A DNA stretch of 41,022 nt from an uncultured Actinomycetes bacterium (GTDB lineage Bacteria > Actinomycetota > Actinomycetes > Nanopelagicales > Nanopelagicaceae). This document shows, one piece after another, positions 21,608 through 26,775 of the stretch. Below the pieces are notes generated by a model that made no database searches, was not told the DNA's origin, and was given only the letters and a program-made list of their open reading frames with translations. Made by a program: the position numbers and the translations under genes. The stretch is taken from NCBI GenBank assembly GCA_903895995.1, contig CAITVX010000032.1, positions 1 through 41,022 of the forward strand, given 5' to 3'. The number at the start of each line of letters is the position of its first letter. Position 1 is the stretch's first letter.

Positions 21608-23038
21608 ATGAGTAAGAAAGTGAAATTAGCCTCGCACGATGCACCCGGCGCTAAAGCCTGGGATAAGTTCATGTCTTCAGGATGGGCGCCTTCACCACTT
21701 CAAGGAATCTCAGAAGTTGAAGCTGCGCCATTTTGTGCCAAGCGTCGCGAAGCGCTATCTAAGGCATTCCCCGGAGAACGACTAGTCATTCCCGCAGGCT
21801 CGCTGAAAGTTCGCAGCAACGATACTGATTATCGATTCCGTGCACACTCTGCCTACTCATATCTCACTGGTATCTCTGCAACTGATTCTGTCCCTGATTC
21901 TGTATTGGTTCTTGAACCAAAGAAGAATGGCCACGAAGCAGTTCTCTTTATCCACCCACGTTCTCCTCGTGACTCTGAAGAATTTTATAAAGACCGCGTA
22001 CACGGTGAATTCTGGATTGGCCGTCGTATGACCCTCGATGAGACCACAACTCTGTATGGAATAAAGACCAGGCATATTGATGGGCTTAAGAAATTCCTCG
22101 GTGATGACGCAGATACATTAATTGTTCGTGGTGAAGATGCGATCGTTGATAAGGCTGTATCAAAGCGGAAGAAGAAGGAATCTGAATTCGAAATATTCCT
22201 ATCTGAGATGCGCTTGATCAAGGATTCTTATGAAGTGAAAGAGATGCAAGCTGCAGTTGACGCGACCGGTCGTGGTTTTGATGACATGATCAAGAGCTTT
22301 AACTCTGCAGTAGGCGTTCGCCGTGGAGAGAGAATTATTGAAGGCGCATTCTTTACACGCGCACGTATCGAAGGAAATGAACTTGGTTATGACTCAATCG
22401 TTGCAAGCGGCGCCCATGCATGTGTTCTCCATTGGATCCGCAACGATGGTGATGTGCTGGATGGTGATTTGATTCTGATCGACGCTGGTGTTGAGCTTGA
22501 ATCGCTCTATACCGCCGATATCACCCGCACATTGCCAGTCAACGGAAAGTTCTCTCCCGCTCAACGCGATATCTACGACTTGGTCTGGAAATCACAACAG
22601 GCTGGATTTGCAGCTTGCAAGCCTGGTGCAAAGTTCGCCGACATCAACAAGGCATGCCATCAAGTATTAGCAGAAGGTCTTGCAGCACTTGGTGTACTTC
22701 CCATCTCTGCCGAAGAGTCTATGAAACCTGAATCTGGTTTACATCGTCGTTGGACTATCCATGGGGTAAGCCACATGCTCGGTATTGATGTGCATGATTG
22801 CCAAGCAGCGCGCGAATCTGAATATAGCCAAGGTGTTCTCAAAGCAGGAATGATTTTGACGGTCGAACCTGGTCTCTACTTCCACCCTGATGATCTTCTT
22901 GCCCCAGAACGTTTGCGCGGAATCGGTGTACGCATCGAAGACGATGTCGTAATCACTGAGAATGGCTGTGAAGTTATGAGCAAGGGTATTCCTACTCAAG
23001 CAGATGAGGTCGAAGCTTGGATGAAGAAGCTTTTATAA
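21608..23038 (+). CDS. pepP: Xaa-Pro aminopeptidase (M24B)
   Basis: The 476-residue enzyme has an N-terminal aminopeptidase-P domain (GERLVIPAG, then FRAHSAYSYLTGI) and a C-terminal pita-bread metallopeptidase domain. The five metal ligands are visible: two Asp in LILIDAGVELESLYTADITR, His in HGVSHMLGIDVHD, Glu in TVEPGLYF, and Glu in GVRIEDDVVIT. It removes N-terminal residues that precede proline, in the cytoplasm, using two metal ions. Its last 6 bases overlap the end of the convergent crcB gene. Length and domain order are normal for PepP. Confidence 0.95.
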   Translation: MSKKVKLASHDAPGAKAWDKFMSSGWAPSPLQGISEVEAAPFCAKRREALSKAFPGERLVIPAGSLKVRSNDTDYRFRAHSAYSYLTGISATDSVPDSVLVLEPKKNGHEAVLFIHPRSPRDSEEFYKDRVHGEFWIGRRMTLDETTTLYGIKTRHIDGLKKFLGDDADTLIVRGEDAIVDKAVSKRKKKESEFEIFLSEMRLIKDSYEVKEMQAAVDATGRGFDDMIKSFNSAVGVRRGERIIEGAFFTRARIEGNELGYDSIVASGAHACVLHWIRNDGDVLDGDLILIDAGVELESLYTADITRTLPVNGKFSPAQRDIYDLVWKSQQAGFAACKPGAKFADINKACHQVLAEGLAALGVLPISAEESMKPESGLHRRWTIHGVSHMLGIDVHDCQAARESEYSQGVLKAGMILTVEPGLYFHPDDLLAPERLRGIGVRIEDDVVITENGCEVMSKGIPTQADEVEAWMKKLL

Positions 23039-23374
23039 GTAATTTCCGATTGCAGCTGCGCCAATTCCTAGTACCAAAGTGAGTGCTAGATAGAGATAAG
23101 CCTTGCCTCGGTGATTTCTCTTAATGAGGTGATGTGCTTCCACTGCAAAAGTCGACCAGGTCGTAAATGCACCCGCAAAACCAGTTCCGATGACAAATCC
23201 AATATTGTGGTTGTAATGAACTGTGAGACCGAGAATAAATGAACCGACTGTGTTGATCCCAAGTGTTTCGATCGGAATCAAAGATCGATGGAGCTTCTTT
23301 ACCTTTTGATCAACGAGATAGCGTGCCGGCGCACCTACTCCAGCACCAAGTGCAATGAGAAGTTCGGTATTCAT
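23033..23374 (-). CDS. crcB: Fluoride channel subunit CrcB/Fluc (first copy)
   Basis: The 113-residue membrane protein has about four hydrophobic helices and the Fluc signature residues. GAGVGAPARYLVD is at the N-terminus, INTVGSFILGL carries the conserved Asn, and GFAGAFTTWSTFA is the pore motif with the phenylalanine. Fluc channels are dual-topology dimers that let fluoride leave the cell. The gene starts at an ATG that overlaps the stop of the second crcB copy (ATGA). Two adjacent crcB genes, as here, usually make a heterodimer. No fluoride riboswitch was found near the operon. Confidence 0.93.
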   Translation of the reverse strand: MNTELLIALGAGVGAPARYLVDQKVKKLHRSLIPIETLGINTVGSFILGLTVHYNHNIGFVIGTGFAGAFTTWSTFAVEAHHLIKRNHRGKAYLYLALTLVLGIGAAAIGNYL

Positions 23375-23745
23375 TTCACCAACTTCTTCTCAAGGAGCTC
23401 GTGGGTCACAAAGACCAAGATATATGTCCCAAGTAGCGAAGCAACTGCATAGATAATTGCAGAACTCGGATTTCGATTTTCAAAGTATTGATCCATCTTC
23501 AGTGCGAAGGCTGAATATGTTGTGAATCCCCCACAAAAACCAGCGCCCAGCGCAGGTCTCCACCACCATTTCGCCGATTTATGGTGTCTGGAGTAGAGAA
23601 GTACAGCAACTAAGAAGACAGAGCCGGCATAGTTAACAAGGAGAGTTCCCCACGGAAAACTCTTCTCAGAGAATGGTAGAGAGATCCCCCAGCGAGAGAG
23701 CGAACCGATTATGCCGCCGAGTGAGACGACAACGACGTTCTTCAG
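23371..23745 (-). CDS. crcB: Fluoride channel subunit CrcB/Fluc (second copy, CTG start)
   Basis: The minus strand encodes a 124-residue second CrcB that has no ATG, GTG or TTG at a usable place. The frame shows GGIIGSLSRWG, then WGTLLVNYAGSVFLVAVLL with the conserved Asn, then GAGFCGGFTTYSAFA, the pore motif, and a last helix before the stop. The only sensible start is CTG at 23745. It forms a CTGA overlap with the stop of the upstream gene, the same 4-base layout as the GTGA and ATGA junctions elsewhere in the window, and GGGG lies 5 bases before it. The frame is closed by a TAG 24 bases further up. It pairs with the adjoining crcB, giving the usual two-gene heterodimer. Confidence 0.9.
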   Translation of the reverse strand: MKNVVVVSLGGIIGSLSRWGISLPFSEKSFPWGTLLVNYAGSVFLVAVLLYSRHHKSAKWWWRPALGAGFCGGFTTYSAFALKMDQYFENRNPSSAIIYAVASLLGTYILVFVTHELLEKKLVK

Positions 23746-24095
23746 TTTTTCCCCACACGCTTTACAGTGCTATTAAGTAATCCTGAGACGAGGGAGATGA
23801 TTAAAGCTGCAAAGAGAGCTGACCAAAAATTATTGATTGTGAGCGCACTCGACCAACGTGCAGTGAGTTCAAGCATCGCGGCGTTAATAACAACAATGAA
23901 GAGACCCATCGAGAGCAAGACGGCTGGAAGAGTCAGCAATTTCAACATGGACCCGATGGTTGTGTTAATCACTGAGAAGAGTAAAGCGACCCAGAAATAG
24001 CTCCATGCCCCACCGTGAACATTTATTCCGGGAACCAACGCGGTGGCAGCCCAAACAGCAAGTGCACTTGCAGCCCAACGGATTAAGAGTTTCAT
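23742..24095 (-). CDS. Small membrane protein, YvlD/phage holin 4-2 family
   Basis: The 117-residue protein has four predicted membrane helices: about 5-21, 33-50, 57-75 and 90-107. It matches the family of YvlD-like proteins named after mycobacterial phage holins, with an ATALVPGINVHG loop and INTTIGSMLKLLTLP after the second helix. These are ordinary chromosomal membrane proteins of unknown function, and no phage genes surround it. It is the first gene of an operon with both crcB genes, joined through the CTGA overlap. TACCCT lies 7 bases before the ATG. Confidence 0.82.
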   Translation of the reverse strand: MKLLIRWAASALAVWAATALVPGINVHGGAWSYFWVALLFSVINTTIGSMLKLLTLPAVLLSMGLFIVVINAAMLELTARWSSALTINNFWSALFAALIISLVSGLLNSTVKRVGKN

Positions 24096-24130: not shown

Positions 24131-24892
24131 TTAGAGCATGCCCTCGCGCTTGCGAATCTTGCTTCCAAGCCAGCGTAGCGGATCATATTTCTCATCGACA
24201 ACACGCTCCTTCATTGGAATGATCGCATTATCGGTGATACGAATATGTTCTGGGCAAACTTCGGTGCAGCACTTGGTGATGTTACACATTCCAAGTCCAT
24301 GTTCTTCTTGAGCGCTCTTCTTGCGGTTACGCAAAATATCTAGTGGATGCATATCAAGCTCTGCGATACGGATAAAGAAGCGTGGTCCTGCAAAGGATTT
24401 CTTATTCTCTTCGTGATCGCGAATAACGTGGCAGGTATCTTGGCACAAGAAACATTCAATGCATTTACGGAATTCTTGGGATCGTTCGACATCGATCTGT
24501 TGCATGCGAGGTTCGCCAGGCTTCATGCCAGGAGGCATTTCAACAGATGGGATCTCCATCGCTTTCTTGTAGTTAAAGGAGACATCTGTAACGAGATCCT
24601 TGATGACAGGAAATGCGCGAAGTGGCGTGATTGTGATGGTTTCATCTTCTGGATACGAAGCGACTTGAGTCATGCATGCAAGGCGAGGCTTTCCGTTGAT
24701 CTCCATTGAGCAAGATCCGCATTTACCAGCCTTACAGTTCCAGCGAACAGCAAGATCACCCATCTGAGTTGCTTGAACGCGATGAATAATATCGAGCACA
24801 ACTTCACCATGATTCGCCTCAACCGTTACATCTTGCAGACCACCGGTCTTATCGTCTCCACGCCAGATACGTAATTTGAGAGTGCGTGCCAT
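24131..24892 (-). CDS. sdhB: Succinate dehydrogenase iron-sulfur subunit
   Basis: The 253-residue protein carries the three iron-sulfur centres of the succinate dehydrogenase/fumarate reductase family. CKAGKCGSCSMEINGKPRLAC holds the 2Fe-2S cluster, while CIECFLCQDTCHV and CNITKCCTEVCPEHI hold the remaining cysteines for the 4Fe-4S and 3Fe-4S clusters. It passes electrons from the FAD of SdhA to the membrane quinone site. Its length and the size of the neighbouring membrane subunit match the Sdh1 type of mycobacteria. It begins in a TAATG overlap with the stop of sdhA. Confidence 0.95.
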   Translation of the reverse strand: MARTLKLRIWRGDDKTGGLQDVTVEANHGEVVLDIIHRVQATQMGDLAVRWNCKAGKCGSCSMEINGKPRLACMTQVASYPEDETITITPLRAFPVIKDLVTDVSFNYKKAMEIPSVEMPPGMKPGEPRMQQIDVERSQEFRKCIECFLCQDTCHVIRDHEENKKSFAGPRFFIRIAELDMHPLDILRNRKKSAQEEHGLGMCNITKCCTEVCPEHIRITDNAIIPMKERVVDEKYDPLRWLGSKIRKREGML

Positions 24893-26775
24893 TAGTTGGA
24901 ACCGCCTTTCGAAATTTCTTCCGGGGTCATGTACTTTTCAAGTTCGTGTACATCAAAGAGGTCGAAAAGTTCCTTTGGAAGTACAGGAAGAGGTTGGGCT
25001 TTCACAATTACTTTATCGCGATCAAAGCTTGAAATGTGGTTGACCTGACGCCATGTTGAATTCATTCCAGGGAAATCATCGCGTGTGTGGCCACCGCGGG
25101 ACTCTTCACGCAGCAATGCAGATTTCGCAGTGCTCTCGGCAACAAGCAACATATTGTCGAGATCGAATGCCAAGTGGAATCCAGGATTGAACTTGCGATC
25201 GCCTGTCACTGAAATATTTGCACTGCGCTTTCGGATATCAGCAATCTTCTCAATCGCTTGTGTTAGTTCGGCGCCAGTGCGGATGATTCCGACGAGATTA
25301 TGTGTGACTTCTTGAAGTTCTTGGTGGAGTGAGTAAGCGTTCTCGCCACCTGTGCGAGTAAATGGAGCAGCGATTCGTGTTGCTGCCTTCTCGAGAGTCG
25401 CGGCGCTTACGGGGTTCTTGCCATGTGATTTCACATATTCGACTGCGCCCATGCCGGCACGGCGTCCGAAGACCAAGAGATCTGTGAGTGAGTTTCCGCC
25501 GAGTCGGTTAGACCCATGCATTCCGCCTGCAACTTCACCAGCTGCAAAGAGACCATCTACACCAACAGCTGCTGCTGTATCTGGCTCAACTTCAACGCCG
25601 CCCATGACATAGTGACAAGTTGGGCCAACTTCCATAGCTTCCTTGGTGATATCTACGCCAGCTAGTTCGTAGAACTGGTGCCACATAGATGGAAGGCGCT
25701 TCTTAATAACTTCGGCAGAAAGACGCTTTGAAACATCGAGGAATACTCCACCATGTTCGGTCCCACGTCCCGCCTTTACTTCAGTATTGATAGCGCGTGC
25801 CACTTCATCGCGAGGCAATAACTCTGGTGGGCGACGGTTATTGTCTTGATCGATATACCAACGATCGGCTTCAGCTTCATTATCTGCATACTTATCTTTG
25901 AAGACATCTGGAATATATTTGAACATGAATCGCTCACCGAGCGAGTTGGTGAGAATTCCACCTTCGCCGCGAACAGACTCTGTTACAAGAATTCCTTTAA
26001 CAGAAAGTGGCCAGACCATTCCTGTTGGGTGGAATTGTAAAAATTCCATATCAACTAAGTTGGCACCGGCTTTGAGAGCAAGCGCATGGCCATCGCCAGT
26101 GCCCTCCCAAGAGTTCGATGTAATTTTAAATGTCTTTCCAACGCCACCAGTTGCGATAACGACTGCAGGTGCTTCAAAGAGAATCTCTTCGCCAGTTTCT
26201 CGGCGGTAGCCATATGCGCCTGCAATTTTGCCATTCTCTTTGAGAATGTCAGTGATAGTTACTTCGGCAAATACTTTGAGGTTCTTCTCGGCGTCGCCAG
26301 TTTCCCGCTTATCTTTCTGCTGCAAAGCAACGATGCGTTGCTGCATGGTGCGAATAAGTTCTAGACCGGTGCGATCACCAACGTGAGCAAGACGTGGGTA
26401 CTCATGCCCACCGAAGTTGCGTTGAGAAATTTTGCCCTCGGATGTGCGATCAAAGAGTGCGCCCCACATCTCAAGCTCCCAGATGCGGTCTGGTGCTTCT
26501 TTGGCGTGTAGTTCAGCCATTCTGAAGTGATTGAGGAACTTACCGCCACGCATAGTGTCGCGGAAGTGAACCATCCAGTTGTCATTGTCGTTGACGTTAC
26601 CCATCGAGGCTGCGGCTCCACCTTCAGCCATAACTGTGTGAGCCTTACCAAAGAGTGACTTACAGACGATTGCGACAGATAAACCTGCATCGCGAGCTTC
26701 TACTGCTGCGCGAAGTCCAGCCCCACCAGCCCCGACGATAACCACGTCGTATGAATACTTCTCTAGATTAGCCAT
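24892..26775 (-). CDS. sdhA: Succinate dehydrogenase flavoprotein subunit
   Basis: The 627-residue protein is the catalytic subunit. VVIVGAGGAGLRAAVEA is the FAD-binding motif. GKAHTVMAEGGAA contains the His expected to bind FAD covalently. FLQFHPTGMVWP and HGSNRLGGNSL belong to the substrate and FAD sites, and a C-terminal helical domain follows. It oxidises succinate to fumarate on the cytoplasmic side. GGGGGA lies about 10 bases before the ATG. It stands 18 bases after sdhC and overlaps sdhB by one base, so the order is sdhC-sdhA-sdhB. Confidence 0.96.
   Translation of the reverse strand: MANLEKYSYDVVIVGAGGAGLRAAVEARDAGLSVAIVCKSLFGKAHTVMAEGGAAASMGNVNDNDNWMVHFRDTMRGGKFLNHFRMAELHAKEAPDRIWELEMWGALFDRTSEGKISQRNFGGHEYPRLAHVGDRTGLELIRTMQQRIVALQQKDKRETGDAEKNLKVFAEVTITDILKENGKIAGAYGYRRETGEEILFEAPAVVIATGGVGKTFKITSNSWEGTGDGHALALKAGANLVDMEFLQFHPTGMVWPLSVKGILVTESVRGEGGILTNSLGERFMFKYIPDVFKDKYADNEAEADRWYIDQDNNRRPPELLPRDEVARAINTEVKAGRGTEHGGVFLDVSKRLSAEVIKKRLPSMWHQFYELAGVDITKEAMEVGPTCHYVMGGVEVEPDTAAAVGVDGLFAAGEVAGGMHGSNRLGGNSLTDLLVFGRRAGMGAVEYVKSHGKNPVSAATLEKAATRIAAPFTRTGGENAYSLHQELQEVTHNLVGIIRTGAELTQAIEKIADIRKRSANISVTGDRKFNPGFHLAFDLDNMLLVAESTAKSALLREESRGGHTRDDFPGMNSTWRQVNHISSFDRDKVIVKAQPLPVLPKELFDLFDVHELEKYMTPEEISKGGSN

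Follow-up and report, generated by a model that had tools for sequence, protein, structure and literature searches.

A fluoride channel subunit gene with a probable CTG start overlapping the upstream stop codon in the Nanopelagicaceae

The window, that is, the whole stretch of 41,022 nucleotides analysed here (contig CAITVX010000032.1 of an uncultured member of the Nanopelagicaceae), harbors two adjacent genes of the CrcB/Fluc fluoride channel family, named crcA and crcB here, behind genes for succinate dehydrogenase and a small membrane protein (Table 1). The frame preceding sdhA matched nothing in Pfam or NCBIfam at the thresholds applied and is likely sdhC. A gene for Xaa-Pro aminopeptidase faces the cluster from the other side. 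No fluoride riboswitch was recognized in the window at Rfam gathering scores, three tRNAs being the only matches.

Table 1. Features of the crcA locus (positions in the window)
Feature	Position	Strand	Remarks
Membrane-protein-like frame upstream of sdhA, 267 aa	26794-27597	-	assigned by position
sdhA, succinate dehydrogenase flavoprotein subunit	24892..26775	-	NF005866, 1103.2 bits, over cut-off
sdhB, succinate dehydrogenase iron-sulfur subunit	24131..24892	-	NF009052, 467.7 bits, over cut-off
Small membrane protein, Phage_holin_4_2 family (PF04020)	23742..24095	-	overlaps crcA
TAG closing the crcA frame upstream	23770..23772	-	
GGGG, Shine-Dalgarno-like	23751..23754	-	5 nt before CTG; the stretch pairs with ACCUCCUU at -5.5 kcal/mol
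CTGA 4-nt overlap of crcA start and upstream stop	23742..23745	-	
Putative CTG start codon	23743..23745	-	aligned with CTG in L002 and L003, ATG in L006, GTG in L034 and L119
crcA, CrcB/Fluc subunit	23371..23745	-	124 codons from CTG, plus TGA; predicted N-in/C-in
TGA stop of crcA	23371-23373	-	
crcB, partner CrcB/Fluc subunit	23033..23374	-	ATG start, ATGA overlap with crcA stop; predicted N-out/C-out

A sequence-only reading had described crcA as a complete 124-residue CrcB without any ATG, GTG or TTG near its beginning, closed by a TAG just upstream and overlapping the preceding stop codon as CTGA, and all of these points were confirmed. From the TAG onward, the frame reads CAC TGT AAA GCG TGT GGG GAA AAA CTG AAG AAC GTC on the minus strand; its earliest ATG, GTG or TTG is codon 92 from the opening of the frame, which is residue 84 of 124, and the TGA of the upstream gene (23744-23742) overlaps the CTG. 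As had been predicted for standard gene callers, crcA is absent from a listing of ORFs that begin with ATG, GTG or TTG (minimum 60 aa) and is present in a stop-to-stop listing. It had been called the second channel gene; it is indeed a channel gene, but in the order of transcription it is the first of the pair.

The crcA product matches PF02537 (CRCB) over the whole protein with 83.5 bits (cut-off 32.9), and its partner does so with 90 bits; the corresponding scores for TIGR00494 were 66.9 bits, which is below the cut-off of 80.45, and 80.9 bits. In phmmer comparisons with Fluc proteins of solved structure, the crcA product matched Fluc-Bpe (5a40/5nkq, 3.8e-11) and Fluc-Ec2 (5a43, 9e-10). The pore motif claimed earlier, GAGFCGGFTTYSAFA, is present in the translation, and the pore stretch GAGFCGGFTTYSAF aligns with TGFLGGLTTFSTF of Fluc-Bpe, where the Phe that follows TT is replaced by Tyr in the crcA product and by Trp in the partner. 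With loop borders set by eye on the proteins of the window, the K+R loop-charge bias was above zero (N-in) for CrcA and below zero (N-out) for CrcB, each in 41 of 41 loci. Such an opposite bias is the signature of twin Fluc channels (PMC3755343), so that both halves of the channel are probably needed; judging from loop charge, the pair is predicted to be an antiparallel heterodimer that conducts fluoride, in agreement with the two-subunit set proposed from the window alone. La1/La2 of Lactobacillus acidophilus, the heterodimeric "fraternal twin" Fluc described there, is likewise encoded by tandem crcB genes (crcA and crcB both belong to the CRCB family), and one of its partners has positive N and C termini and a positive loop 2, while the other has positive loops 1 and 3 (PMC3755343). 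Unlike La1/La2, crcA has a CTG start that overlaps an unrelated membrane-protein gene behind sdhAB, and the channel function of crcA/crcB is a predicted one.

Matches to crcA were found in 50 of 60 relatives at E <= 0.001 and in 41 of 296 genomes of the family at E <= 1e-20, and merging of identical proteins among the relatives' matches gave 42 distinct loci, with the distant L027, L029 and L030 and the extra-familial L078-L118 left out. In five genomes of the same genus (G003, G015, G017, G022 and G024), no CrcB match was obtained at E <= 0.001, and the channel pair seems to have been lost or to have remained unassembled there. A contig from a bin labelled as a beta proteobacterium (L049, CAISYI010000242.1) carries an actinobacterial sdhB-holin-crcA-crcB locus, and the bin is mislabelled or mixed. 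An sdhB gene precedes crcA in 41 of the 42 loci; the remaining locus lies at a contig edge. Scans for a promoter or terminator of crcA's own gave matches no more frequent than in shuffles, and because no terminator-like site above chance lies between sdhB and crcA, the two genes are likely carried on one transcript. The Phage_holin_4_2 gene is missing in L034 and L119, where crcA directly follows sdhB and begins with GTG (after a gap of 3 nt and in a GTGA overlap, respectively); these two loci appear to represent a natural deletion of the coupling partner.

For codons 2-124 of L001-L003, pN/pS was 0.11-0.13 in two pairs whose synonymous sites were saturated, and dN/dS was 0.04 in one pair. Codons 2-21, with few differences overall, gave dN/dS values of 0.08 (L001/L002), 0.25 (L001/L003) and 0.48 (L002/L003, 17 differences). 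These ratios indicate that crcA is under purifying selection, less clearly so for codons 2-21 in L002/L003. In a tree of both subunits (41 rows, without the partial L028), the rows with CTG are scattered over several branches, many of which are weakly supported.

In the two closest relatives, G012 and G028 (86-87% identity), the corresponding codon of crcA is likewise CTG. The CTGA junction with the upstream gene exists in 10 of the 42 loci and in four genera, as defined by handle: L001-L003 (g1), L032, L033, L035 and L072 (g30), L036 and L037 (g31), and L076 (g34; assigned to G099 by matching coordinates). The overlap in L035 is shifted eight codons upstream and is still CTGA, and three of the ten loci offer other possible starts (ATG at -13 in L033, GTG at -37 in L036 and ATG at +9 in L076). 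In 16 loci (L007, L009-L013, L015, L017, L018, L020, L024, L025, L028, L031, L074 and L075), a TTG, or GTG in L074, is located two codons before the codon that overlaps a TAA stop. Five others (L004, L016, L019, L021 and L038) have no standard start codon and show ATA or ATC at the same -2 position, which is a possible start. The remaining 11 loci have an ATG or GTG start, placed exactly in the CTG column in L006 (ATG), L034 and L119 (both GTG); further upstream in L008, L014 and L049 (ATG at -7) and in L022 and L023 (ATG at -8); and in overlaps three codons upstream in L026 (GTGA) and L069 (ATGA), with the same ATG in L070, which is cut by the contig end. An in-frame stop shortly before this GTG in L034 and L119 rules out a start further upstream. 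Altogether, 12 of the 42 loci (L001-L004, L016, L019, L021, L032, L035, L037, L038 and L072) contain no ATG, GTG or TTG from the opening of the frame to codon +12. The comparison of N-termini proposed at the outset thus found ATG or GTG in the same place in three relatives; a start elsewhere in relatives, which had been named as grounds for refutation, is real for the 16 loci with TTG or GTG at -2 and for those with ATG seven or eight codons upstream, and does not apply to the closest relatives.

Among the 12 loci in which a PF04020 gene ending in TGA overlaps the crcA frame (L119, whose GTGA overlaps sdhB, is not one of them), the junction is CTGA in ten, ATGA in one and GTGA in one. At the crcA-crcB junction of the same set of loci, in contrast, the base before TGA is A in 24, G in 13, T in one and C in none (n=38); for C before TGA at the two junctions, Fisher's test gave p=6e-9, a value overstated since the species are related. 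The C may partly follow the last-codon usage of the upstream gene, though the residue encoded there varies (N, F, R). At the third base of codon 0, CTG was kept in 9 of 9 loci (without L035) against 0 of 24 other invariant fourfold-type columns, which is no proof, because two bases of this codon are already set by the overlapping TGA.

As a genome-wide control, 348 kb of this genome (the window and 18 further stretches) were surveyed, in which stops of adjacent genes form ATGA 28 times, GTGA six times, TTGA twice and CTGA four times. The four CTGA sites are that of crcA, those of L134 and L138, where an ordinary start follows within a few codons, and one located 53 codons upstream of the conserved part. 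In 188 of the 204 dominant conserved ORFs in the same 348 kb, a standard start lies no more than 15 codons from the onset of conservation; of the 16 that were flagged, crcA alone among identified genes lacks a standard start for over 80 codons. Besides crcA, five of the flagged ORFs were inspected singly: two short start-less frames, judged to be shadow frames, L135, and two with a late ATG, in which the conserved sequence before the ATG is taken as non-coding; the ten others reach a standard start 16-26 codons after the alignment begins.

Pairing with the 3' end of 16S rRNA was computed as duplex energy of positions -19 to -4 before the start against ACCUCCUU, an end seen in two other genomes of the family; searches of this genome, G012 and G028 did not recover it. 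The mean energies, relatedness of the species being ignored in all three comparisons, were -3.5 kcal/mol for the CTGA group (10 loci; control -1.7, P=0.007), -4.6 kcal/mol for the ATA/ATC group (5 loci; control -1.9, P=0.003) and -0.4 kcal/mol for the group with TTG or GTG at -2 (15 of the 16 loci; control -1.65, P=0.97). Good Shine-Dalgarno-like motifs are present in four of the five ATA/ATC loci, and within the CTGA group L033 and L072 lack such pairing and L035 shows it only weakly. A Shine-Dalgarno-like motif thus goes with the weakest codons, and initiation at the TTG loci seems to depend only on the overlap, ribosomes at the loci with TTG or GTG at -2 perhaps being supplied only by coupling. 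No common RNA structure was recognized at the start among the seven of the ten CTGA loci folded (the window, L040, L039, L041, L050, L057 and L072), with z values of -0.5 to +0.2 in six and -2.27 in L072.

Two peculiarities of the translation machinery were considered and are not supported. An initiator tRNA of the tRNA-fMet M1 type, with changed G-C pairs in the anticodon stem, accepts CUG (PMC11497404), but a normal stem (GGG..CCC) was seen in this genome and in others, 10 of 12 in all; in G087 and G099, no initiator tRNA was found at up to two mismatches. IF3, whose absence was the other candidate, is present in 12 of 12 genomes. With a normal initiator stem and IF3 present, nothing suggests special translation machinery.

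We consider it probable (about 0.78) that crcA is an intact gene for one subunit of a heterodimeric Fluc channel and is translated from the CTG that overlaps the upstream stop. That a pseudogene or a base-call error accounts for the missing start is exceedingly improbable: the assembly consists of 39 contigs from an uncultured lineage, but the identical codon recurs in two other species whose genomes were assembled separately, which excludes a sequencing error for practical purposes, and CTGA in four genera, the strong purifying selection and an open frame without in-frame stops speak against decay. If ribosomes shifted to the -1 frame over the last codons of the upstream gene and so fused its membrane protein to CrcA, no start codon would be needed at all, and crcA does lie in the -1 frame of that gene, with overlapping frames in most loci. 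However, no X XXY YYZ heptamer was found in the last eight codons of the upstream frame (0 of 39 loci), six of the seven folded loci have no unusual structure near the site, frame relation and overlap length vary between loci, and L034 and L119 have their own GTG in the absence of the upstream gene. Based mainly on the lack of slippery heptamers and on these stand-alone starts, a programmed frameshift was rejected as very unlikely. Hardly less unlikely is initiation elsewhere in the short open stretch at a different non-standard codon, either 5' of the CTG or within the first transmembrane helix, where ATA and ATC are candidates at codons 12 and 13; five relatives likely use ATA or ATC at -2, but other relatives have ATG or GTG in the CTG column, a start at codon 12 would remove conserved residues of TM1, and it is CTG alone that recurs in the CTGA loci.

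A less easily settled question is whether the CTG, if used, is a selected throttle or is just tolerated as a by-product of the overlap geometry, in that ribosomes which reinitiate would be hardly sensitive to the codon. The latter is a serious possibility, if somewhat short of even odds, as the junction has been solved in many ways (CTG, TTG at -2, ATA or ATC at -2, ATG and GTG) and as the TTG group lacks the Shine-Dalgarno-like motif, which is expected if coupling supplies the ribosomes. On the other hand, the neighboring 4-nt overlap in the same loci always has a standard codon, ATGA prevails over GTGA and TTGA elsewhere in the genome sample (28:6:2), and upstream genes that end in R could reach ATG or GTG by a synonymous change.

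For the preferred reading of an active CTG start, initiation with fMet and coupling at the overlap would proceed as follows. Ribosomes that terminate on the upstream membrane-protein gene would stop over the CTG, where the Shine-Dalgarno-like stretch in the last codons of that gene would aid a start with fMet-tRNA, and crcB would be translated via its own ATGA overlap with crcA. Because crcB would be coupled behind crcA, a weak CTG would determine how much of both subunits is made, and channel output from the sdh transcript would be kept low; we infer that the weak codon may be kept because it holds down output from this housekeeping transcript.

Genes of the infC/pcnB type begin with AUU and have kept a weak non-standard start over long evolution, in infC with feedback by the translation factor. 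They resemble crcA in this long-kept weak start, and the ATA/ATC candidates of five relatives are closer to them than CTG is. Bacterial CTG starts are established, though very rare, with few conserved cases; 20 of nearly 85,000 genes were annotated with one, as cited in PMC11983097. The clearest case described in the part of that source available is RepFIB rep, the nearest precedent for crcA: its CTG start is genuine and often mis-annotated downstream, a change of CTG to CTC kills its function, and CTG with a good ribosome-binding site was suggested to give just enough expression (PMC11983097). However, RepFIB rep is a plasmid replication gene for which a stop overlap is not described in that part, whereas crcA is the gene of a chromosomal membrane channel with a CTGA overlap across genera. 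Overlaps of -4 nt between unidirectional genes, as in crcA, are enriched for subunits of heteromeric complexes, with translational coupling as standard (PMC10666635); starts are treated there as ending in G and non-canonical ones as rare, and CTGA, unlike in crcA, is not discussed in the part available.

In the open literature searched, we found no report of a crcB gene with a non-canonical start or of a CUGA start overlap with reinitiation, and nothing on fluoride in the Nanopelagicales. As far as these searches reach, the novelty lies in a membrane channel subunit whose CTGA start has persisted in several genera, other non-standard starts being present in sister lineages. Because CTG, TTG, ATA/ATC, GTG and ATG replace one another naturally in the same gene and neighborhood, start-codon tuning and termination-reinitiation become directly testable. 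For annotation, a gene caller limited to ATG, GTG and TTG makes the fluoride channel appear to have one subunit. As a tentative proposal, to which we give well under even odds, this freshwater actinobacterial family may keep a deliberately weak start on one subunit, with CTGA in four genera, AUA or AUC elsewhere, and a Shine-Dalgarno-like motif kept at the weakest codons and lost with UUG, so that a single codon would dose the whole channel on the sdh transcript. If true, gene callers would be overlooking a non-AUG start that is both conserved and evolving.
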